From Arcobacter sp. (GTDB taxonomy: Bacteria > Campylobacterota > Campylobacteria > Campylobacterales > Arcobacteraceae), in NCBI GenBank assembly GCA_020048055.1, contig JAIFNA010000006.1:124001-188000 (forward strand): a DNA stretch of 64,000 nt, given 5' to 3'. Below are positions 12,575-34,800 of the stretch, in pieces. The stretch's first letter is position 1. Each line of letters opens with the position of its first letter. Both the position numbers and the translations under genes were made by a program. Below the pieces are notes generated by a model. The model searched no databases. It was not told the DNA's origin and saw only the letters and a program-made list of their open reading frames with translations.

Positions 12575-13675
12575 ATGTTACTAACACCAGGACCAACACC
12601 AGTACCAGAATTTGTACGAGCTGCGATGGCAACTGAAACTTTACACCACAGAACACCAGAGTTTGAGGCGATATTTAAAAATACACGGGAGCTTCTCCTT
12701 GAAATCCTTGATATGCCAGAAGCTTTGATGCTGTCTTCAAGTGGAACAGGTGCTATGGAGGCTTGTATTATAAACCTTACGGCTAAAAAATCATTAACAA
12801 TAAATAGTGGAAAATTTGGCGAAAGATTTGGAAAAATTTGTAAAGCTATGAATATTCCAAATGTTGAAATTAAAAATCCATGGGACACACCAGTATCTGT
12901 TGAAGCTGTGCTTGAGATTATAGAAAATGATAGCGAGATTGATTCGATTTGTATCCAAATATGTGAAAGTGCTGGGGGTTTACGACACCCAGTTGAAGAG
13001 ATAGCAAAAAAAGTAAAAGAGATAAATAGTGATATTATAATAATAGCTGATGGTATAACAGCAGTTGGAGTTGAAAAAATTGATACAACAAATATTGACG
13101 CATTGATTACTGGTAGCCAAAAAGCACTTATGCTTCCACCTGGACTTGCTATGATTGGACTAAGCCAAAAAGCAGTTGACAAACTTGAAATAAATGCAAA
13201 AGGTTATTATTTTAATCTTGCAACTGAACTAAAAAATCAAAGAAAAAATACAACAGCTTGGACTGCTGCTACAACTTTAATCATCGGACTTGGCGCAATT
13301 TTAGAAAAAATAAAAGCTGATGGATTTGAAAATCTTTATAGTGATACAAAAAAACGAGCAGAGGCTTCAAGGGAGGCGCTAAAAGCTATTGGACTTCCAA
13401 TTTATCCGAAAACGCCAGCTGACAGTATGACTACAATTTTTAGTGAAAAATCAAATGAAATTAGAAAAATCTTGAAAAACAAATACGATGTCAATATTGC
13501 TGGTGGACAAGATGACCTAAATGGAAAAATTTTTAGAATTAACCACATGGGGCTTGTTGCTCCATTTGAGGCTTCTTGGGCTGTTAATGCGATTGAAAAA
13601 ACACTTGATGAGCTTGGTTTACGAAAATTTGACGGAACAGCTAATAAAGTATTTATGGAAACTTATTTCAGATGA
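12575..13675 (+). CDS. Class V aminotransferase (alanine-glyoxylate/serine-pyruvate type)
   Basis: PLP-dependent aminotransferase of 366 residues. It opens with LLTPGPTPVP, typical for the serine/alanine-glyoxylate subgroup; the PLP lysine is Lys183 in TGSQKALMLPPG, and SSSGTGAMEA binds the cofactor phosphate. The donor and acceptor cannot be told by sequence alone; serine, alanine or aspartate are candidates. The ribosome-binding site TAGGTAGG is close to the ATG. It overlaps hisZ by four bases and the two are co-transcribed. Confidence 0.88.
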   Translation: MLLTPGPTPVPEFVRAAMATETLHHRTPEFEAIFKNTRELLLEILDMPEALMLSSSGTGAMEACIINLTAKKSLTINSGKFGERFGKICKAMNIPNVEIKNPWDTPVSVEAVLEIIENDSEIDSICIQICESAGGLRHPVEEIAKKVKEINSDIIIIADGITAVGVEKIDTTNIDALITGSQKALMLPPGLAMIGLSQKAVDKLEINAKGYYFNLATELKNQRKNTTAWTAATTLIIGLGAILEKIKADGFENLYSDTKKRAEASREALKAIGLPIYPKTPADSMTTIFSEKSNEIRKILKNKYDVNIAGGQDDLNGKIFRINHMGLVAPFEASWAVNAIEKTLDELGLRKFDGTANKVFMETYFR

Positions 13676-14514
13676 TTTTTGAACACGAAATACCAGATGG
13701 GTGTAGACTTTATTTTGGTGATGTTGCTAAAAAGAAAAGAAATCTCGAAAATAAAGTAAGTGAATTTTTTGATAAAAATGGATTTTTAGAGATAGTTACA
13801 CCTAATTTTTCATACTCTGGACACCAAAGTATCGATGATGAAACGAAGTTAATCAAGCTAAATGACACAGATAATAATCAACTTACTTTGCGAGCCGATA
13901 GTACACTTGATGTTGCTAGAATTATTACAAAAAGATTGGGAAGAACAACTGACCACAAAAAGTGGTTTTATATACAACCAATTTTTTTATATCCATCGAT
14001 TGAAAATTATCAAATTGGGTGTGAGTGGCTTGAGCATACAAAAATTAGTGATATTATAAATATTACAAGTGAGATTTTTGATATGTTAAAGATAAATCCA
14101 CTTATCCAAATTGCAAATTTGAATATCCCAAAAATAATTTCAAAAGAGTTCAATATTCCAATTTCTTATTTTAGAGATGGAGAGATTGTGAAGCTTTTTG
14201 GTCTAAAACTTGACTGGTTAAAATGTTTATTATATGCATCCACTAAAGATGATTTAGAGAAGCTTTACCCATCTTTACCAGAGTGTTTGAAAGATGAAGT
14301 TTTAAAATTGATAAAAATTGGTGATGATTTATCGTACAAAAATATGATAATTTCACCACTTTATTTTGATAGTATGAAGTATTATGATGATATTTATTTT
14401 AGAGCAATTGAAGGAAATGAGACAATAGCAAAAGGTGGGCAATATAATAGCGATGGTGTTGAATCTTTAGGATTCGCACTTTGCACAGATAATTTATTAA
14501 AAATATTAACCTAA
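13672..14514 (+). CDS. hisZ: ATP phosphoribosyltransferase regulatory subunit (HisZ)
   Basis: Histidyl-tRNA synthetase-like paralogue without the anticodon domain. The 280-residue protein keeps the class II catalytic-core pattern (LRADSTLDVARI motif 2-like region; a C-terminal GGQYNSDGVESLGFAL motif 3-like region). It partners the short form of HisG and makes the complex sensitive to histidine. hisG itself is not in the window. Its position before purA is common in Campylobacterota and joins two pathways that share PRPP and the AICAR branch. Confidence 0.85.
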   Translation: MIFEHEIPDGCRLYFGDVAKKKRNLENKVSEFFDKNGFLEIVTPNFSYSGHQSIDDETKLIKLNDTDNNQLTLRADSTLDVARIITKRLGRTTDHKKWFYIQPIFLYPSIENYQIGCEWLEHTKISDIINITSEIFDMLKINPLIQIANLNIPKIISKEFNIPISYFRDGEIVKLFGLKLDWLKCLLYASTKDDLEKLYPSLPECLKDEVLKLIKIGDDLSYKNMIISPLYFDSMKYYDDIYFRAIEGNETIAKGGQYNSDGVESLGFALCTDNLLKILT

Positions 14515-14607
14515 ACGGCAATCGTCAGATTGTCGTTTAGGATTGATTTTAGGAAGAACTTGTTCTTCGTAAAATAAAACAAAAAAGTGAAGGTTTCCTT
14601 CATTTTT
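14511..14607 (+). promoter_or_regulatory. Three-hairpin leader of purA, last one terminator-like
   Basis: Three stem-loops follow each other: 14511-14540 (13-base arms, one G-U), 14553-14568 (GAAGAAC TT GTTCTTC) and 14583-14607 (11-base arms, TTT loop, ending in a run of T). The last is an intrinsic-terminator shape only 27 bases before the purA ATG, which leaves no room for another promoter. A conditional attenuator is the natural reading; it could also just end hisZ transcription. Confidence 0.55.
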
Positions 14608-14621
14608 AGTATAAAAATTAA

Positions 14622-15884
<1,263 letters not shown>

Positions 15885-15904
15885 ACTTCACAATTATCTG
15901 ATTA

Positions 15905-15961
15905 TTTGCTTAATAACAGCAAACAAAGGCATTAGGATTGATTTTATTTGGAACTTGTTTT
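15905..15961 (+). promoter_or_regulatory. Leader of the DUF507 gene sharing a box with the purA leader
   Basis: A small dyad TTTGCT/AGCAAA (15905-15923) is followed by the box TTAGGATTGATTTTA, then GAACTTGTT, at 15932-15958. The same two blocks, at nearly the same spacing, occur in the purA leader at 14537-14564. Both lie just before the ribosome-binding site of the next gene. Confidence 0.4.
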
Positions 15962-15995
15962 AAATGAAATGGAACAAAAATTAAGGAGTAAAAAT

Positions 15996-16547
15996 ATGAA
16001 ACTAAAAAAACAACACGCAAACTTTTTAGCAAGAAAAATAACGAAAGATTTATTAAATAGTGAATTTATAGAAGCTAGAAAAGATAGAATGGCAATATCA
16101 GCAGAGTGTGAAAGAATTTTGCTTGAAGATATAGAAAAAGAGATAAAACTTGATGAGCAAGTAAATGTTATTTTAGAAAATATGGAAGATGATATTTCAT
16201 TTTATAATGCCGATTTCAAACAACTTTTCTGGATGACAAAAAAAAGATTAGCAAATGAGTTTGATGTAAATCTAAATTTTGAAGATAGATTTTCAAACAT
16301 CGCACATAATATGATGGACTTTCTGTATGAGGAGGATTTTATCCACTTTACAGTTTCAGACAATCAAGTAAAAAATTTAATAGCAAACTCAATTGACCAA
16401 TTTATCAAAGGATATGATGAAGCTGATAGTTTAGCTTATGATAAAATCAAAAACTATAAACGAAAACTTATCCCTGGGACAGAGGATTACGAGCTTATTT
16501 TTAAACGACTTTACGAGGAAGAATTAATAAAAAAAGGATTGTTATAA
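15996..16547 (+). CDS. DUF507 family protein
   Basis: A 183-residue, charged, all-helical protein of the DUF507 family. It is built of two similar halves, each with a KLxxxHANFLARKI-like and a LIANSI-like segment. I set the start at 15996 because AAGGAG (15983-15988) precedes it at seven bases and because the family begins with M-[KR]-L-K; an in-frame extension to 15948 is unlikely. It touches carA in a TAATG arrangement. Function is unknown, but pairing with carA is conserved in Campylobacterota. Confidence 0.9.
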   Translation: MKLKKQHANFLARKITKDLLNSEFIEARKDRMAISAECERILLEDIEKEIKLDEQVNVILENMEDDISFYNADFKQLFWMTKKRLANEFDVNLNFEDRFSNIAHNMMDFLYEEDFIHFTVSDNQVKNLIANSIDQFIKGYDEADSLAYDKIKNYKRKLIPGTEDYELIFKRLYEEELIKKGLL

Positions 16548-17686
16548 TGGAAAGAATTTATCTTTATCTTGAAAATGGCACTTTTTTAGAAGGTGATAGT
16601 TTTGGTGCTAGTGGCACTAGTGTTGGGGAGATAGTATTTAATACTTCTCTAACTGGATATCAAGAGATTACAACTGATCCGAGTTATGCTGGACAATTTA
16701 TAACTTTTACAATGCCAGAAATTGGAAATGTTGGTGTAAATCAAGCAGATAATGAATCAAAAGTTGCCTACTCAAAAGGTGTGATTGTAAGAGCTTACAA
16801 CGAAGCTTATTCAAATTTTAGAGGGGAAAGAAGTTTTGGTGAACTTCTAAAAGAGCAAGGCGTTCTAGGAATTTGCAATATTGACACTAGATTTTTAACA
16901 AAAATGATAAGAGATGAGGGCGCTATGATGATGGTAGCATCAACTCTTATTAGCGATAAAGATGAGCTAAAAAAAGTACTAGAGGGCAACCCACGAATTG
17001 AGGAGATTAACTATATCAATGAAGTGAGCACAAAAGAGGCTTACATCCACAAATATGGTGCTTGGAACCACGCAATTATGGATTATAATAAAGCTGTTAT
17101 GAGTGATAAAAAAGTAGTTGTACTTGATTTTGGAGTTAAGAGAAATATTTTAAATGAACTTGTTGAGGCTGGACTTGAAGTTGAGGTTATACCTAATACA
17201 TTTAAAGCTGATGATTTAATTGCAAGATTTGAAAATGGTGAAATTGGCGGAATATTCCTTAGTAATGGACCAGGTGATCCGCTTACGCTTACAAAAGAAA
17301 AAGAGCAAATTCAAAAACTAATAGATAAAAATATCCCAATTTTTGCAATTTGTCTTGGACATCAAATGTTAAGTATAGCTCATGGACATGATACTTATAA
17401 GCTTAAATTTGGACAACATGGTGGAAACCATCCAGTTGGAAATGAAGATGGCGCTGTTGAGATAACAGCACAAAACCACAATTATAATGTTCCAGATAGT
17501 ATTACTGAGATTGCCGACATCACACATATTAATCTATTTGACCAAACAATTGAGGGTGTACGATATAGAGATAAGCCAATATTTTCAGTTCAGCATCACC
17601 CAGAAGCTAGTCCAGGACCACATGAAAGTAAATATATCTTTAAAAAATTTGCCGATATTGTAAAGATTTCAAATGCAACACTTTAG
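16547..17686 (+). CDS. carA: Carbamoyl-phosphate synthase small (glutaminase) subunit
   Basis: Releases ammonia from glutamine for carbamoyl phosphate used in pyrimidine and arginine synthesis; works with CarB, which is not in the window. The 379-residue protein has the small-subunit N-terminal domain (LENGTFLEGDSFGA), the amidotransferase nucleophile Cys269 in FAICLGHQ and the partner His/Glu in QHHPEASPG near residue 350. Its start overlaps the DUF507 stop, and its end overlaps the next gene by 14 bases. Confidence 0.97.
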   Translation: MERIYLYLENGTFLEGDSFGASGTSVGEIVFNTSLTGYQEITTDPSYAGQFITFTMPEIGNVGVNQADNESKVAYSKGVIVRAYNEAYSNFRGERSFGELLKEQGVLGICNIDTRFLTKMIRDEGAMMMVASTLISDKDELKKVLEGNPRIEEINYINEVSTKEAYIHKYGAWNHAIMDYNKAVMSDKKVVVLDFGVKRNILNELVEAGLEVEVIPNTFKADDLIARFENGEIGGIFLSNGPGDPLTLTKEKEQIQKLIDKNIPIFAICLGHQMLSIAHGHDTYKLKFGQHGGNHPVGNEDGAVEITAQNHNYNVPDSITEIADITHINLFDQTIEGVRYRDKPIFSVQHHPEASPGPHESKYIFKKFADIVKISNATL

Positions 17687-18704
17687 ATTTTCAATAATTT
17701 TTGCAATTGTGGCACTTGGTGTTGCTGGTTGGTGGGGATTTTCAAATGGGGGGATAATGTTGGCTTTAGCTATGGTTTGGTTAGCGCTTGTACTATCAGC
17801 TATGGAGATTTCACTTTCATTTGATAATGCCGTTGTAAATGCAGCGATTTTAAAAGACTGGGATGAATACTGGAGAACACTATTTTTAACAGTTGGTATG
17901 ATAATAGCTGTATTTGGTATGAGGCTACTTTTCCCACTTGTTATAGTTGCTATGACTGCTGATATGGGGATTTTAGATGTTTGGAATTTAGCTATTTCAA
18001 ATCCAAATGAATATTCAAAAGCACTTATTTCACACCATGCTGAAGTTTCAGTTTTTGGTGGAATGTTCCTTTTGATGGTATTTTTAAATTTTATTTTTGA
18101 TCATGAAAGAGATATTCACTGGCTTGGAAAACTTGAGGAGCAACTAGGAATGCTTGGTAGAATAGAGACTATCTCAATTTTTATTGCACTTTCTACACTT
18201 TTACTTTGTATAACTATGGTACCTGAAGCTGAACAATTTAAAGTTTTAATGGCTGGAATGTGGGGACTTGTTATATATATCGGGGTTGATATGTTGGCTA
18301 GCCTTATGGAACACCAAAAACCTGATTTAAATGCAGGAGAACTTGTAAAAAGAGGAAGTATTGGTGGATTTTTGTATCTTGAAGTACTTGATGCATCATT
18401 CTCTTTTGATGGTGTAATTGGTGCATTTGCTATCACTAAAGATATTGTTATTATTATGATTGGACTTGGTATTGGTGCTATGTTTGTACGAGCTATAACT
18501 ATTTATCTTGTTGAAAAAGAGACACTTTCGGAGTATAGATACTTAGAGCATGGTGCTCATTATGCTATTGGTATTTTGGCTATTATTATGCTTTTAAGTC
18601 TAAAATTCCACATTCCTGAAGTTATCACGGGCTTTATCGGAATACTTTTCATAGGACTATCTATTTGGTCATCTGTTAAACACAATAGATTGGAAGCAAA
18701 CTAG
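17673..18704 (+). CDS. DUF475/TerC-family integral membrane protein
   Basis: A 343-residue protein with about nine transmembrane helices. The EISLSFDNAVVNA segment near residue 46 and the later LDASFSFDGVIGAFA segment form a pair of Asp/Asn-bearing helices characteristic of the TerC/DUF475 group, which has been linked to metal (Mn) export or tellurium resistance in relatives. Substrate here is unknown. The ATG at 17673 overlaps carA; no clear Shine-Dalgarno is visible, which fits translational coupling. Confidence 0.85.
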   Translation: MQHFRFSIIFAIVALGVAGWWGFSNGGIMLALAMVWLALVLSAMEISLSFDNAVVNAAILKDWDEYWRTLFLTVGMIIAVFGMRLLFPLVIVAMTADMGILDVWNLAISNPNEYSKALISHHAEVSVFGGMFLLMVFLNFIFDHERDIHWLGKLEEQLGMLGRIETISIFIALSTLLLCITMVPEAEQFKVLMAGMWGLVIYIGVDMLASLMEHQKPDLNAGELVKRGSIGGFLYLEVLDASFSFDGVIGAFAITKDIVIIMIGLGIGAMFVRAITIYLVEKETLSEYRYLEHGAHYAIGILAIIMLLSLKFHIPEVITGFIGILFIGLSIWSSVKHNRLEAN

Positions 18705-18849
18705 CTTCTAATTTAGGGTTTTAAAACTTACTATTTTCCACTTCAGACTACAGAGCAAAGAGCTATTTCTCTTTGCAAATATCTAAAATCAAGCAATGAC
18801 AGTTTAAAAAACAACTAGCTACAATTTGAACATAATAAAAGGGGACAAA

Positions 18850-19074
18850 ATGACAGCAAGAATGATACGATATGATGAAAGCTACAGCGGACTTATCGAT
18901 GAGCTTGTAGCTAAAAGCGGTGGAAATATCGAGATTGTTGATGTTGAAAATCTGAAACTTGACCCATATTTTTATGAAAGAAAAACAAGTTTGGATAAGA
19001 CTATCAAAGCTATAGATGATGGTACTTTGGAGATGCTTTCTCATGAGGATGTTTGGGCTGATTTGGAAAAATGA
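18850..19074 (+). CDS. Antitoxin of a ParE-type toxin-antitoxin pair
   Basis: A 74-residue acidic protein encoded directly before a ParE-like toxin and overlapping it by four bases. The C-terminal part (SHEDVWADLEK) has the short helix common in Phd/RelB/ParD-type toxin-binding tails. The start at 18850 is preceded by AAGGGGA; an ATG 24 bases upstream lacks one. The N-terminal DNA-binding fold is not obvious from sequence, so the antitoxin call rests mainly on context. Confidence 0.75.
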   Translation: MTARMIRYDESYSGLIDELVAKSGGNIEIVDVENLKLDPYFYERKTSLDKTIKAIDDGTLEMLSHEDVWADLEK

Positions 19075-19364
19075 GTATGAAAATAATTTATACTCCTCTT
19101 TCAAAACAAAATCTTCTTCAAATAAAACAATTTATAGCAAAAGATAAAAAAATTGCAAGCGAGAAATTTATGGCAAGACTTAAGCTAGCAATAGAAAATA
19201 TTATAAACTCCCCATACAAATATAGAAAATCATTTTATTATCAGGATGAAAACATAAGAGATATGATTTTTGGTGGTTATTCGATTATCTATCGAATTAA
19301 TATCCCAAAAGATGCTATAGAAATATTGGAGATTTTTAATCAGAATCTTCCTGAAATAAAATAG
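19071..19364 (+). CDS. ParE/RelE-family toxin
   Basis: A 97-residue basic protein of the ParE/RelE fold: helical hairpin (LSKQNLLQIKQFI), then the core strand signature IRDMIFGGYSIIYRIN and a terminal EILEIFNQNLP. It lacks the clustered basic RNase residues of RelE, so a gyrase-poisoning ParE-like action is more probable, but this is inference. A homologous toxin lies at 50143-50439. Confidence 0.87.
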   Translation: MSMKIIYTPLSKQNLLQIKQFIAKDKKIASEKFMARLKLAIENIINSPYKYRKSFYYQDENIRDMIFGGYSIIYRINIPKDAIEILEIFNQNLPEIK

Positions 19365-19378
19365 GATAAAAAGTAAAG

Positions 19379-21508
19379 ATGAAAAAAACGAAAACAAACA
19401 GACTTATAAAATTATCGTTGGCTTCGTGCCTAGCAATAACAGTTGGGCTCACTTTTGCAAATGCGGAGATGCTAAGAAGCGAAAGTCAAGAAGTAGTTTA
19501 TGATACTGATACAAAACTTATGTGGCAAGATAATATTGAAGCAAAAACATTGAAAAAAAAATGGCAAGGTGCAATGGATTATTGTGAAAATCTCTCTTTA
19601 GCTGGATACAATGATTGGAAACTACCAGATATTAAATCTTTACAGAATATTTATCCTAAAAAGAATTTTTTTAAAAATTTAGATTCAGATATCATGTCTT
19701 GTGATTATTGGACTTCAACTTTGTCTCCAGATTGGGGTCCTAATGACATATGGTATGTTGATTTTTCTGATATTGGTAATCACAAAAGTTGTGAAAAATT
19801 TTATGATAATCGAATTCGTTGTGTTAAAAATACTAATTTTACTCCTTTAACATTTTTTTCATTTTTGGAACAGGTTAAAACTTCAAATAGTGGGAAAAAA
19901 CTTAAATCAAAATCCTTGTCAGCAATTTATAGCGAGTCAAAATTATGTTTAGTTAAATATGGTAAAAATTATTTTGGAACTAAAGATGAATTAAAGGAAC
20001 AGTTTGGAATGGTATCTTTTGAGTACTCTAAAAAACCATTTCAGGATATTCAAAAGCTTACACAACAAAAATTAAATGAGTATCTTACTATTACAACGAT
20101 TCCATCACCAAGACTTCCAAAACCACTTAACTTAGTCAAAAATGAATTTGAATCAAAAGCTCAATTTAGTGAAAGGGTAAAAAATGAAACCATCCAAAGA
20201 GAAATTGAAATACAAAGGTTACAGGATGAGTTTAGAAGTGAAGTTGAAGAAAGAAATAATGAATTAGAAAATAGAAAAGAAAATATAGATGAAAAGAAAA
20301 AAGAGTTTGCTCTTGAAAGTTTTGACGAGGTAATGGGAACTCCAAAATTATTAAATCCAATCTTTGATGCGGAAACAAATACTATGTTTGTTGATGTCAG
20401 TATGAGTAATGCAGAGTGGAAGAAAAATGTAGGGATAAAAATAGAAGATAGAAGTTTGGCTAAAGATTTTAAAAATAGTATCGATAATGCAAATACAAAA
20501 GTGGTTTTTGAATATGAAAATGATAGATTTATCCTTAAAAATATCGATATAGATTTTGAAAATAAAAACTTAGTAGCAACATTAAACCAAAAAGACTTTA
20601 TCCCAGAAAAAGTAGCCGTAACAATAGAAAATAAAAAAGTAGCATTTAATGAACTTCAAAACCCAAACTTAGTTGACAAATACCAAGTTTCAGCATTAGG
20701 TTACGGCGAATCAAATAGTGCTAAGGGTCTAAAATACACAGATGACCTAACACCACTTATCTCCAAAATGGCTACAACAAAACCAAATCCAAAAAACTGG
20801 CTCTTTGCGATAGGAATAGAAAACTACGATGAAGCAGATGCTGTTATCTATGCCGCTAATAGTGCCAAAACTATGATAAGTGCTATGCAAAAAAGACTGG
20901 GAATTAGTGAGCGAAATACTTATGCACTTATAGATGAAAAAGCAACAGGTGGAGCTATCAAAGGACAACTTGAAAGATTATTAGAAAATGTAAAAGAAGG
21001 AGATAATATCTATTTTTACTATAGTGGACATGGGATTCCAAGTGGAGAAAATGGAGAAGCATTTATCTTGCCAAAAGATGTGATTGCTGATTATGTTACA
21101 AGAGAATCTGAATTTATGGCTAGAAATATCTACAAAAAACTAAGCGATAGCAAAGCCTCTAAAATAGTAGCCTTTGTCGATAGTTGCTATAGTGGAAAAA
21201 CAGATGGTATTTCAAATATCAAAGGGGTAGCTGCTGGAGTATTTAAAACTAAAAAAGTTGAGTTTGATAGTTCTAAAATGGTAGTTTTCACAGCTGGAAC
21301 AAATGGACAGTTTTCAAATGCTTATAGTGAAAAAGGACAAAGACTTTTTAGTTACTTTGTAGCAAAAGGATTAGCTACTAGAGCTGATTTGGATATAAAT
21401 AGCTTGTATCAAGAGGTATCAGTTGGAGTTAAAGATGAAAGTTTTAAGATGGGAGATAATAAACGACAAGTTCCTCAAATAGAGGGAAATACTGGGATGG
21501 GGTTATGA
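19379..21508 (+). CDS. Secreted caspase-like protease with N-terminal DUF1566 domain
   Basis: A 709-residue protein. Residues 1-29: signal peptide. About 38-150: DUF1566/Lcl-like module (LMWQDN, DWKLPDIKSLQ, YWTST, IRCV). About 240-310: highly charged coiled coil. About 345-450: beta-rich segment. About 470-709: caspase-like (peptidase C14) domain with the catalytic dyad His551 in YYSGHG and Cys603 in DSCYSG. It should act in the periplasm or at the outer membrane. The next gene overlaps it by four bases, so the two form a pair. The natural substrate is unknown. Confidence 0.88.
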   Translation: MKKTKTNRLIKLSLASCLAITVGLTFANAEMLRSESQEVVYDTDTKLMWQDNIEAKTLKKKWQGAMDYCENLSLAGYNDWKLPDIKSLQNIYPKKNFFKNLDSDIMSCDYWTSTLSPDWGPNDIWYVDFSDIGNHKSCEKFYDNRIRCVKNTNFTPLTFFSFLEQVKTSNSGKKLKSKSLSAIYSESKLCLVKYGKNYFGTKDELKEQFGMVSFEYSKKPFQDIQKLTQQKLNEYLTITTIPSPRLPKPLNLVKNEFESKAQFSERVKNETIQREIEIQRLQDEFRSEVEERNNELENRKENIDEKKKEFALESFDEVMGTPKLLNPIFDAETNTMFVDVSMSNAEWKKNVGIKIEDRSLAKDFKNSIDNANTKVVFEYENDRFILKNIDIDFENKNLVATLNQKDFIPEKVAVTIENKKVAFNELQNPNLVDKYQVSALGYGESNSAKGLKYTDDLTPLISKMATTKPNPKNWLFAIGIENYDEADAVIYAANSAKTMISAMQKRLGISERNTYALIDEKATGGAIKGQLERLLENVKEGDNIYFYYSGHGIPSGENGEAFILPKDVIADYVTRESEFMARNIYKKLSDSKASKIVAFVDSCYSGKTDGISNIKGVAAGVFKTKKVEFDSSKMVVFTAGTNGQFSNAYSEKGQRLFSYFVAKGLATRADLDINSLYQEVSVGVKDESFKMGDNKRQVPQIEGNTGMGL

Positions 21509-22473
21509 TGAAAAAACTAATCCCTATCTTTTGTGTTGCATTTACCACTTCTCTTTTTGCCACTCCATCGTGGTTTGGTACTATAAAGCCAAATAATTCA
21601 TACGAAATCATCGGCTACGGAGAGGCTCTTAATCTAAATGAAGCAAAACAAAATGCAAGGGATGAGATAGCAAAACAGATAAAAGTAAATATCAAAAGTG
21701 AGATACAAACTACCAAAGAATCAAAACAAAATGAGTACACAAAAAATACAACTTCAACTTCAAAGCAAGATACATCAGTCGCACTTTCAAGTGTGGAAAT
21801 ATTGCAAAATGAAAAAGATGGAGATACTTGGTATGTCGCATTAAGCTATGATAATCGCCCAATTACAACAAAATTGATACAAAAATTAGAAGGTGTAAAA
21901 TGTGCTAAATCGCCACATCCGTACCTCTTTAATACTGGATTTTATAAAAAACTTGCATCTGATGGGATGGAAGCAAATCTCACAAATTGTATATTGCCAA
22001 CTTTTGATAATGGGGTGAATTATATCGGGACTTCTCTTGTAAGGGTCGATTTTGATTTCGATATTTTGCTTGAGTCTGTTTCAAATGGAATGAGTGTAAA
22101 TGCAACCAAAACAAAGCTCAAAAACAATGAAGCATTTCATTTAACAATAGATGCTCCAAAAGGATATTTGAGTATTTTTAATATTTATGAGGGTGGGAAA
22201 GTAAATGTAGTCCTTGCAAATAAAGAGTTTAAAAGTGATGTAAAATATACTTTTCCAGAAGCCGCACAAGAGTTTGAACTCTCATCTTCTATCAAAAAAG
22301 TGAGGGAAATTGAGGGGTATTTTGTGATAAGTTCACCTATAAAACTTAATCTTAATCGTTTTGGAGCAACTGAATTTAGTTCAAACGGAAGTGAAAAATA
22401 CCAATTTGATGAGTTTTTAAAACTCCTCGAAAACAATAAATTTGCTTCAACAGTGATTATGATTAGTAGATAA
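21505..22473 (+). CDS. LPP20/DUF4384-like secreted protein, partner of the caspase
   Basis: A 322-residue secreted protein without a lipobox Cys; the signal peptide ends near ATPSW. Residues about 20-130 resemble the LPP20 domain: Trp, then YEIIGYGEALNLNEAKQNAR, a Ser/Thr-rich stretch and a DTWYVALSYDNRP strand. Residues about 195-275 resemble DUF4384 (KNNEAFHLTIDAPKGYLSIFNIYEGGKV). The pairing of DUF4384 with a caspase domain suggests a common envelope function. It is similar in layout to the LPP20 lipoprotein at 33757-34800. Confidence 0.8.
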   Translation: MMKKLIPIFCVAFTTSLFATPSWFGTIKPNNSYEIIGYGEALNLNEAKQNARDEIAKQIKVNIKSEIQTTKESKQNEYTKNTTSTSKQDTSVALSSVEILQNEKDGDTWYVALSYDNRPITTKLIQKLEGVKCAKSPHPYLFNTGFYKKLASDGMEANLTNCILPTFDNGVNYIGTSLVRVDFDFDILLESVSNGMSVNATKTKLKNNEAFHLTIDAPKGYLSIFNIYEGGKVNVVLANKEFKSDVKYTFPEAAQEFELSSSIKKVREIEGYFVISSPIKLNLNRFGATEFSSNGSEKYQFDEFLKLLENNKFASTVIMISR

Positions 22474-24734: not shown

Positions 24735-24810
24735 GATATGTCAAAATGCAATATTTTTTTAAAAAGTTATTTTGCTTTGTTACAATTATTAAAAATTTGA
24801 GGGGATGATA

Positions 24811-25809
24811 ATGACAAAAATAATGCAACAACAATTAAATCTTAATAATCTGCCAAAGAACAAGCCAAATACACTCAAAGCAATAGATTTGTTTGCGGGA
24901 ATTGGTGGAATTAGACTTGGATTTGCTGAAGCTTTTAAAGAAGATATTGAGTTTGTGTTTAGTTCTGAAATCGATAAATACGCACAAACGACATACTATG
25001 CAAATTTTGGTGAAATGCCACATGGTGATATTACTAAAATTGATGAAAAAAATATACCAGTACATGACATACTTCTGGCTGGTTTTCCGTGTCAAGCTTT
25101 TTCTATTGCAGGAAAAAGACTTGGATTTGAAGATACAAGAGGGACATTGTTTTTTGAAGTAGCAAGAATTATCAAACATCATAAGCCAAAAGTTGTTTTT
25201 TTGGAAAACGTGAAAGGTTTTGTTAATCATGACAAAGGAAATACTTTTAAAGTTGTAAAGGAAACTTTAAATGAACTAGGATACAAGGTGTTCTCGAAGG
25301 TTTTAAATGCAAAAGATTTCGGAGTGCCACAAAATAGGGAGAGAATTTATATTGTTGGATTTTTAGATAATGAAGTGGATTTTGAGTTTCCAAAAGCTTT
25401 AGATAAGTGCGTATCGATTCAAGATAAGCTAGAGCAAAAAGTAGATACAAAATACTACTACAACGATAAACCTCTTTATGAGCGAATAAAATATGATGTA
25501 ACAAACGAAAAATCAGTGTATCAATGGCGAAGACAGTATGTAAGGGAAAATAAAAGTGAGGTTTGTCCGACACTAACTGCAAATATGGGAACAGGTGGGC
25601 ATAATGTACCTATTATTAAAGATAGTTTTGGAATAAGAAAACTAACACCTAGAGAGTGTGCGAACTTTCAAGGCTTTCCCAAAAATTTTATTTTGCCAAA
25701 AGAACTAGTGGACTCTCAACTTTATAAACAATGTGGGAATAGTGTAGTTGTAAGTGTAATTCGACATATTGCAAAAGATATAAAAAAAAGAATAGTAAAA
25801 AATGACTGA
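24811..25809 (+). CDS. DNA (cytosine-5) methyltransferase of a restriction-modification system
   Basis: C5-methyltransferase of 332 residues with motifs in order: I (LFAGIGGIRLGF), IV (GFPCQAFS, catalytic Cys about 94), VI (ENVKGF), VIII (PQNRERIYIVGF), IX (LTPRECANFQGFP) and X (QCGNSV). The target-recognition region between VIII and IX is short. I chose the ATG at 24811 because GAGGGG at 24799-24804 is six bases away; an ATG two codons upstream is too close. It overlaps the next gene, probably the restriction enzyme, by eight bases. Confidence 0.94.
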   Translation: MTKIMQQQLNLNNLPKNKPNTLKAIDLFAGIGGIRLGFAEAFKEDIEFVFSSEIDKYAQTTYYANFGEMPHGDITKIDEKNIPVHDILLAGFPCQAFSIAGKRLGFEDTRGTLFFEVARIIKHHKPKVVFLENVKGFVNHDKGNTFKVVKETLNELGYKVFSKVLNAKDFGVPQNRERIYIVGFLDNEVDFEFPKALDKCVSIQDKLEQKVDTKYYYNDKPLYERIKYDVTNEKSVYQWRRQYVRENKSEVCPTLTANMGTGGHNVPIIKDSFGIRKLTPRECANFQGFPKNFILPKELVDSQLYKQCGNSVVVSVIRHIAKDIKKRIVKND

Positions 25810-26569
25810 AATTGAACTACTCGAAGCTCTAAAGAATTATGACTATAAAAAGAATAAAGTTAAAACCATAGCAGAACAATGTGGGTTAACAGAAGGTGAA
25901 TTAAAAAAGTTTTATACAACTTATTTTTTTAGAGAGATTTCACAAAAAATAGATTTAGAAAATCTTACTCAACTAAATATAGACCATATTAATTCGAACC
26001 TAACTGATGAAGAGAAAAAAGTTTTTAATTTTATAAAAAGTGATATGAAAAAGATTATTGAAAAAACTTTATCAATAGCCATGACTAATGGATTCAGTAC
26101 AAATATTAACCATGTTGAAAGTGGTGTAATGACTGCAAATGCTGGAGATAGTGCAGAGTTTATTTTTGTAGCTCGTGCAATTTTAGCAGGATTTAATTGT
26201 AGTAGTGTAGATGTAAGAAGTAGTAGATATGATGCAATTATAGATTTTGAGAATGTATTATTAAGAGTTCAAATTAAAGGAATTAGTACTGGAAATACTA
26301 TAAGTTTTAAAGATAGAGATAGAGGCGGACAAGGAATCGACCACAGACATGAAAGAAATATTGGAAAAAGAATAACAGCTCAAGATTGTGATATATATGT
26401 AGCAGTTGACAAGCAAGTAGGCATATGTTATATCATTCCAATGAATTGGGCTGATACTTTAAGCGATGAAGAATGTAAAAATATAAGGTTAAGTCAAATT
26501 GAGCATTATAAAGAAAATTGGAATGTTGTTAAAGAGCTAAGTAGAAATAATCAAAGAGGTTTAAATTAA
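25802..26569 (+). CDS. PD-(D/E)XK-type endonuclease, probable restriction enzyme
   Basis: A 255-residue protein. The N-terminal 80 residues look like a helical DNA-binding region (TIAEQCGLTEGELKKFY, helix-turn-helix-like). The C-terminal part has a nuclease pattern: Glu119 in SAEFIFVARAILAG, then SRYDAIIDF (Asp144/Asp148) and RVQIKG (Gln157, Lys159), close to the PDDEXK_5 family first seen in group I intron-associated enzymes. Its overlap with the methyltransferase gene makes it the likely cognate endonuclease. The recognition sequence is unknown. Confidence 0.75.
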   Translation: MTEIELLEALKNYDYKKNKVKTIAEQCGLTEGELKKFYTTYFFREISQKIDLENLTQLNIDHINSNLTDEEKKVFNFIKSDMKKIIEKTLSIAMTNGFSTNINHVESGVMTANAGDSAEFIFVARAILAGFNCSSVDVRSSRYDAIIDFENVLLRVQIKGISTGNTISFKDRDRGGQGIDHRHERNIGKRITAQDCDIYVAVDKQVGICYIIPMNWADTLSDEECKNIRLSQIEHYKENWNVVKELSRNNQRGLN

Positions 26570-33788: not shown

Positions 33789-34800
33789 TAAAAAAACGAT
33801 TTTAGCTTTAGTTGTCACTTTAGCTTTTGGTGGTTGTGTTGGTGGAAATATAAGTGTTTTACCAAAAAAAGATAGCAAACAAAAAGATGAGATTGCTTTA
33901 CCAAATTGGTATTTAAATTCCCCAAATAATACGGCTATATTTTTGTATGGTTCAGGTGAGGGTGAGAGTCTTGAGATTGCAAAATCAAATGCCCTTAGTA
34001 ATATGGCAGCTAGTTTGGTTGTTAGTGTCTCATCAAACCTACAAACTAATACACAAACAAATATCACAAATGGAAAAGAGAGTTACTCTAAAGATGTTTC
34101 CAAAGATGTAAAAGTTGAAGTTCAAAAGATAAAGTTTACAAATGCAACAGTTAAAAACAATCAGTTGATAGATGGGAAATTTTATCTTTTGATGCAAGTT
34201 GACAGGGCTGAGCTTTTCAGTCAAAAAAAAGGGGAATTTGGTTCGCGTGATGGACGAATTGAAGAACTTTATAGCTCACTTAATGGAAAGTCAAAACTAG
34301 GACAAATTCATATTTTACAAGATATGTACCCACTTTTAAAAGAGGCAAAATCACAAGCAATAGTTTTAAATGCGATAAACAATAGTTTTGCTTATGGGGA
34401 CTATTTAAAAAAGTATGATAATTATATTGATAAAATAGATGATATTAAATCTGATTGTATAGTTTCTGTTGAAAATAATCTATTTGAGAGTTATTTTAGA
34501 GATGTTTTGATTGAGTCATTGAATAAAAATAGATTTAAAATTGGCTCAATCGGAGGTAAAAGTGATATTTTAATCAAGTTAAATGTTCAGCCAAAATATA
34601 GCATAACGAATGGTTGGAATATAGTAAAAGTGACAACAACAATATCTGTTTTGAGTGAAAATAAAATAGTTTCAAATAAAACAATAAGCACAATTGGCAG
34701 ATCTTCAACCTCAAAAGAGAGTGCTTTGGAAGATGCCTCAAAGGGTTTAAGAGATGAAATTGAAACCGCAACACTTGAATATATTATTTTTGGAAAATAG
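33757..34800 (+). CDS. LPP20-family lipoprotein
   Basis: A 347-residue lipoprotein: signal peptide with lipobox FGGC (Cys near residue 27), then the LPP20 domain (LPNWYLNSPNN, YGSGEGESLEIAKSNALSNMA, a Ser/Thr/Asn-rich stretch, LIDGKFYLLMQVDR) and a C-terminal domain similar to a flagellar/LPS-related assembly module (about 235-340). The ATG at 33757 is deep inside the upstream gene; a TTG at 33772, five bases after AAAGGG, is a good alternative. The overlap points to translational coupling with the CsgG-like gene. Confidence 0.82.
   Translation: MKRVALESLSSKKTILALVVTLAFGGCVGGNISVLPKKDSKQKDEIALPNWYLNSPNNTAIFLYGSGEGESLEIAKSNALSNMAASLVVSVSSNLQTNTQTNITNGKESYSKDVSKDVKVEVQKIKFTNATVKNNQLIDGKFYLLMQVDRAELFSQKKGEFGSRDGRIEELYSSLNGKSKLGQIHILQDMYPLLKEAKSQAIVLNAINNSFAYGDYLKKYDNYIDKIDDIKSDCIVSVENNLFESYFRDVLIESLNKNRFKIGSIGGKSDILIKLNVQPKYSITNGWNIVKVTTTISVLSENKIVSNKTISTIGRSSTSKESALEDASKGLRDEIETATLEYIIFGK

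Follow-up and report, generated by a model that had tools for sequence, protein, structure and literature searches.

What is an exported caspase-like protease doing in a bacterium, and why does its gene share four bases with that of a second exported protein? The question is raised by two genes in a 64,000-nucleotide stretch of an Arcobacter sp. genome; we refer to this whole stretch as the window. An earlier note on this DNA had proposed a secreted caspase-like protease coupled to an LPP20/DUF4384-like partner, acting in the envelope and possibly part of a defence-type island. We find that the protease and its partner constitute a real, conserved two-protein unit, a conclusion in which we have high confidence, and the co-inheritance of an exported caspase with this partner suggests an as yet undescribed protease system of the cell envelope. 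The caspase, its constant partner and a set of exchangeable front ends together make up a defined and testable unit, and DUF4384, a domain of unknown function, gains a recurring context.

Layout of the locus

The caspase-like gene occupies positions 19379-21508 (709 amino acids) and the partner gene positions 21505-22473 (322 amino acids), both on the + strand, as are all of the features described below for the two genes and the toxin-antitoxin pair upstream of them. The reading frames share 4 bp (ATGA), so that the positions and the four-base overlap that had been read from the sequence are borne out by our ORF calls. A promoter scan at the locus gave a result no better than that obtained with shuffled sequence.

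The ParE toxin that had been noticed upstream of the caspase gene is real (19071-19364; PF05016, E 9.7e-12) and ends only 14 bp before the caspase start. It is preceded by an 82-amino-acid ORF (18826-19074), by its position the putative antitoxin of the pair, for which no Pfam family was matched in a Pfam scan. The toxin gene is absent from most other loci and probably lies outside the conserved unit. Within the window's genus, several caspase genes have toxin-antitoxin-type genes in front of them, and one genome of this genus (G298) has at least three Lcl_C-caspase loci (L089, L090 and L091). In two of these, L089 and L091, a near-identical copy of the 82-residue putative antitoxin gene stands before the caspase gene together with a different toxin-type partner (a ParE remnant with MNT/HEPN-like genes, or a zeta-like gene; families assigned by eye), and this upstream region looks like a toxin-antitoxin insertion hot spot. 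Downstream of the pair, a C5 cytosine methyltransferase gene overlaps a PD-(D/E)XK endonuclease gene (window 24805-26569), likely a type II restriction-modification pair; a pseudouridine synthase gene and glmU lie between it and the caspase pair.

An exported caspase with a conserved core

The earlier note had described the first product as a signal peptide followed by a DUF1566-like module, a long coiled coil and a caspase domain with an intact His551/Cys603 dyad, and inspection of the sequence, Pfam, alignments of relatives, an AlphaFold2 model and a fold search together uphold these elements. The signal peptide (residues 1-29, ending ...TFANA/E; 19379-19465) was recognized by inspection of the sequence. 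It is followed by an Lcl_C module (PF07603, formerly DUF1566; residues 39-150, 19493-19828), which scored 67.4 bits against a cut-off of 34.9 (E 1.8e-18). A conserved middle region (20036-20581), delimited from the AlphaFold2 model and our alignment of middle and caspase domains (A1), is predicted to consist of a coiled coil (helices 260-301 and 303-319) and a beta-sandwich (322-401), with pLDDT values of about 70-90. The caspase domain (residues 470-709, 20786-21505) carries p20 and p10 in one chain; Peptidase_C14 (PF00656) matched residues 477-703 above its curated cut-off (E 5.7e-13). The model, built from 19 sequences, is confident in the caspase domain and unreliable in the Lcl_C part (pLDDT about 30-50), and a single-sequence search of the Lcl_C region against PDB sequences returned no match. 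The predicted fold of residues 472-709 superimposes on Arabidopsis metacaspase 4 (Z 22.2, rmsd 2.4 over 211 residues) and on MALT1 (Z 21.7, about 210 residues aligned), and the two dyad residues, His551 (codon 21029-21031) and Cys603 (codon 21185-21187), lie inside it.

Both residues are invariant in 18 relatives that were found by protein search without use of the motif; in a wider set of 56, which was fished partly with catalytic motifs and is hence biased, the histidine is present in 56 and the cysteine in 55. Asp601, two residues before the catalytic cysteine, is invariant in the wider set and is a candidate residue for the acidic S1 pocket that goes with cleavage after Arg or Lys. The loop that follows Cys603 (residues 610-620) is modelled with pLDDT below 50 and contains a KGVA motif, the lysine of which (Lys615, codon 21221-21223) is found in 50 of 56 relatives and the glycine in 54; Lys615 is a candidate self-cleavage site.

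The N-terminal module varies among relatives while the middle and caspase domains are kept. Pfam modules in the 56 caspases scanned comprised Lcl_C in eight, WD40 in five and ankyrin repeats in five, and Sel1-like repeats were seen by eye in two further caspases. In six Sulfurimonas-type loci (L119, L120, L130, L131, L133 and L171) a small gene of its own next to that of the caspase encodes Lcl_C; its occurrence as a fused domain in some loci and as a neighbouring gene in others indicates that Lcl_C belongs to the system. A second type of operon was seen in G298 (L099, 4733-6349, and L100, 4154-5719), in which Lcl_C is joined to a Big-like domain and a more distant caspase, preceded by two further proteins, one of about 235-258 amino acids that has no Pfam family and one of 456 amino acids that bears DUF4384; one copy is followed by an AAA_21 ATPase gene.

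An LPP20/DUF4384-like partner

The partner had been read as an LPP20-type domain joined to a DUF4384-like one; the first of these lies above its family threshold, and the second below it in a way that recurs in relatives. LPP20 (PF02169) matched residues 21-111 (21565-21837) with 44.4 bits against a cut-off of 25.9 (E 2.4e-11), and a profile match linked the same domain to HP1454 (4kzs; E 8e-11). The C-terminal beta-sandwich (residues 194-322, 22084-22470) is called DUF4384-like from a sub-threshold PF14326 score (18.5 bits against a curated cut-off of 27, E 0.0022) and from immunoglobulin-like matches; most of the full-length partner relatives scanned gave a similar sub-threshold score, and the L170 partner rose above the cut-off (29.3 bits).

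A structure model of the partner was mediocre (mean pLDDT 67.8). It has an SHS2-like layout, with predicted strands at 34-41, 63-75, 78-90, 98-105 and 108-116 and helices at 44-59 and 120-128, and the strands at 63-90 form a predicted beta-hairpin between the SHS2 helix and the second strand, the place that the hairpin has in FlgP, at pLDDT below 50. A structure search against the PDB gave no significant match (best E 5e-3), and a second search returned immunoglobulin-like matches of a generic kind only (Z about 8), so that we claim no specific fold relative; FlgP was absent from the rows of this search, which does not speak against it. Partner relatives are 24-32% identical to the window protein and caspase relatives 32-74%; the partner has no invariant residues beyond likely fold positions.

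Export signals are carried by both products, as judged from sequence. A simple hydrophobicity and lipobox rule, a heuristic distinct from SignalP, identified an N-terminal signal in 43 of 43 partners and in 70 of 79 caspases, in keeping with the signal peptide seen on the window protein, and most of the exceptions seem to be ORFs called too long or genes from which the Lcl_C part has been split off. No lipobox is recognizable in the window partner; a simple pattern, which overlooks some lipoboxes, picked one out in 9 of 43 partner relatives.

Conservation of the pair

A gene-neighbour survey across Campylobacterota, which the earlier note had proposed as a check, found the two genes together, in clear contradiction to the outcome that the note had named as refuting, a pair not kept together in other genomes. 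Among 298 genomes searched with profiles for the middle and caspase domains (A1) and for the partner (A2), at E values up to 1e-20, a full-length caspase was found in six (G000, G105, G236, G007, G059 and G116) and a full-length partner in exactly these six, with the two genes neighbours in every one; this count does not include a further genome with one partial match to each profile. The profiles include sequences from the six carriers, to which their sensitivity is tuned, and A2 was gathered mainly from caspase neighbourhoods; single-sequence searches, the partner search among them not so gathered, returned the same six genomes. A set of 100 closer relatives added the pair in several more genomes and revealed tandem caspase paralogues in the window's genus. 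An early scan of genome contigs with the partner alone gave no matches, because single-sequence patterns do not cope with the high divergence of this protein.

A scan of about 85,000 species genomes across GTDB yielded 79 loci with 82 caspase genes by our own ORF calling, of which 46 have a partner within 1.5 kb. Among caspases with the middle domain the proportion is 30 of 48, all on the same strand, and among those without it 16 of 34, a few of them divergent. Carriers include Arcobacteraceae, Sulfurimonas, Sulfuricurvum, Helicobacteraceae MAGs, Thiovulum, Vibrio, Photobacterium, Shewanella, SAR324, Spirochaetia, Celaenobacter (Cloacimonadota) and Deferribacteraceae. The exact 4-bp overlap recurs in 9 of 33 close pairs in addition to that of the window, and it is also found on the Sulfurimonas aquatica plasmid pSULFM1, where the pair is annotated as a caspase family protein and an LPP20 family lipoprotein. 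Tree distances of partners and caspases are correlated (r 0.32, with 0 of 2,000 permutations as high), a value uncorrected for species relatedness. The pair is rare in Vibrio, being clearly present in 5 of 148 genomes, in one of which a large insertion interrupts the caspase gene; in G370 (L215 and L216) some 36 kb of inserted DNA split a Vibrio caspase gene near residue 490, the rest of the operon being intact. When 19 genomes with a caspase lacking an adjacent partner were checked, 12 proved to have a match at another place, in some cases a partial or broken one, and in 7 there was none; several of these 7 are probably incomplete. In one Sulfuricurvum genome a single partner stands against four caspase loci, and G116 contains an orphan partner.

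Envelope neighbours

The proposed role in the envelope is partly supported by neighbouring genes. In Vibrio, Photobacterium, Shewanella and one gammaproteobacterial MAG, the operon runs in the order caspase, a 220-amino-acid exported protein without a confident Pfam family, the LPP20/DUF4384 partner, an MltC-like transglycosylase (SLT and Mltc_N), a 150-amino-acid protein that is weakly LPP20-like in Vibrio, and a 272-amino-acid protein. Several of these genomes contain further MltC-type genes elsewhere, which are more distant (about 32-38% identity), so that the operon copy appears to be dedicated. Only a few gammaproteobacteria show this link. The second piece of evidence, a glucosaminidase gene just upstream of the caspase in two related Sulfurimonas loci, is weak and may reflect synteny, since the neighbour on the other, downstream side is also common to both loci. 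The partner and, in Vibrio, Photobacterium and Shewanella, the transglycosylase are candidates for the regulator, substrate or output of the protease.

Proposed mechanism and alternatives

Clustering is a general way of starting caspases. The C-terminal domain of Legionella Lcl trimerises and binds glycosaminoglycans (PMC11162425), and Lcl_C with its coiled coil could likewise cluster caspase domains on a ligand. In the mechanism that we favour, the caspase would work at the outer membrane or within the periplasm. There its N-terminal Lcl_C module would sense a ligand or dock to it and, by way of the coiled coil, gather the caspase domains. The partner would act as a scaffold or regulator dedicated to this protease, forming oligomers at the outer membrane with its SHS2-type LPP20 domain and binding the caspase with its beta-sandwich; DUF4384 has been reported in association with cyanobacterial orthocaspases (PMC7475262) and at the C terminus of alphaproteobacterial pseudo-orthocaspases (PMC6426788), which supports contact between the caspase and partner halves. 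Once active, perhaps through self-cleavage at Lys615, the protease would act on envelope proteins and cut them behind basic residues in the manner of metacaspases and orthocaspases; in operons that include a transglycosylase, controlled peptidoglycan remodelling or lysis would probably result. We put this mechanism forward tentatively, as one that falls somewhat short of probable.

Strict adjacency and overlap of the genes, a partner that diverges faster than the protease, and the usual production of the partner second would all suit a protease and its dedicated inhibitor, in which the partner binds the caspase and keeps it silent until displaced by a signal, much like secreted pairs of a cysteine protease and its inhibitor, with translation coupling at the 4-bp overlap balancing their levels. 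We nevertheless regard an inhibitor as unlikely, given that several caspases lack an adjacent partner, that some genomes have none, that the Sulfuricurvum genome with four caspase loci has one partner, and that the partner in G116 is an orphan.

FlgP, a member of the SHS2 group, forms outer-membrane-associated rings by means of a beta-hairpin between the helix and the second strand (PMC12222027), and the partner, with an SHS2-type LPP20 domain, has a hairpin modelled in the same place and a helix after it. The caspase might cleave the partner as its substrate and free the LPP20 domain to assemble rings at the outer membrane, a gasdermin-like logic with FlgP-like geometry. The low pLDDT of the hairpin and the structure searches without a significant match count against this, as does the interdomain linker, in which aligned relatives have no invariant Lys or Arg as a cleavage site; a substrate is, in our estimation, less probable than an inhibitor.

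It is more doubtful still that the two genes share transcription only, as envelope proteins under one control without physical partnership: the partner does lack invariant residues beyond likely fold positions, but the pair persists across phyla in which operons are rarely kept by chance, and single proteins combining these domains have been reported (PMC7475262, PMC6426788). A composite scheme, in which the exported caspase would sense a ligand through its exchangeable surface module and cleave the LPP20/DUF4384 partner, which would then form rings at the outer membrane and license a peptidoglycan-cutting enzyme, giving caspase-controlled rupture or remodelling of the envelope wholly outside the cytoplasm, is highly speculative and we consider it quite improbable. 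Anti-phage defence by abortive infection is the least probable reading, for although a ParE-type pair and other toxin-antitoxin-type genes precede the window gene and its siblings, the restriction-modification pair lies 2.3 kb downstream, the plasmid copy is near Fic and HipA genes and the distribution is patchy, the defence-type island suggested by the earlier note is not supported by 104 neighbour proteins of 33 loci, in which each listed PADLOC model was matched by one protein only and Pfam matches were mostly housekeeping, so that a defence reading loses weight, while housekeeping genes separate the pair from the restriction-modification genes, both proteins are exported, and phage and viral-contig collections contained no relatives of the module, leaving a phage-borne origin without support. 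The bacterial caspase homologues known to act in immunity are cytoplasmic.

Relation to known systems

Bacterial gasdermins are likewise paired with caspase-like proteases, the protease gene lying beside a membrane-acting partner; these pairs target the inner membrane from within the cytoplasm, whereas the window partner, itself possibly membrane acting, is not known as a gasdermin. With bacterial orthocaspases (C14, clan CD) the window protein shares the caspase fold, the His-Cys dyad and the presence of accessory domains, such as WD40 in the family and DUF4384 with cyanobacterial members (PMC7475262), but it is exported and has a conserved middle domain and a separate LPP20/DUF4384 partner gene, while for the cyanobacterial members a cytoplasmic or membrane-bound location is discussed. 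The partner resembles the LPP20/FlgP/FlgT family in its LPP20 domain, its HP1454 profile match and the SHS2-like layout of its model; it differs in its additional C-terminal beta-sandwich and in sharing an operon with a protease, and flagellar genes are not consistently beside it. Legionella Lcl, too, has Lcl_C and a coiled coil on an exported protein, but in the window Lcl_C is fused to a protease and collagen-like repeats are absent. In the open-access literature we found no account of the caspase and LPP20/DUF4384 pair as a system, of a caspase with LPP20 or of a caspase with a transglycosylase in Vibrio; such absence is not proof. Both proteins fall into named families, to which automatic annotation already assigns them.

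Other observations at these loci

A second, distant LPP20-type protein, 23% identical to the partner, is encoded in the window at about 33892-34197. The MAG record CAMCYD01 (L103 and L104), titled 'Helicobacter pylori PMSS1', is a genome of the window's genus, the other member of which is titled Arcobacteraceae, and the title looks wrong. Both in L064 (G059) and in the window (13672-22473), the caspase pair lies a few kilobases from a hisZ-like gene and purA, with a toxin-antitoxin-like gene pair close by (families by eye), and the two caspase pairs may occupy a common insertion site.
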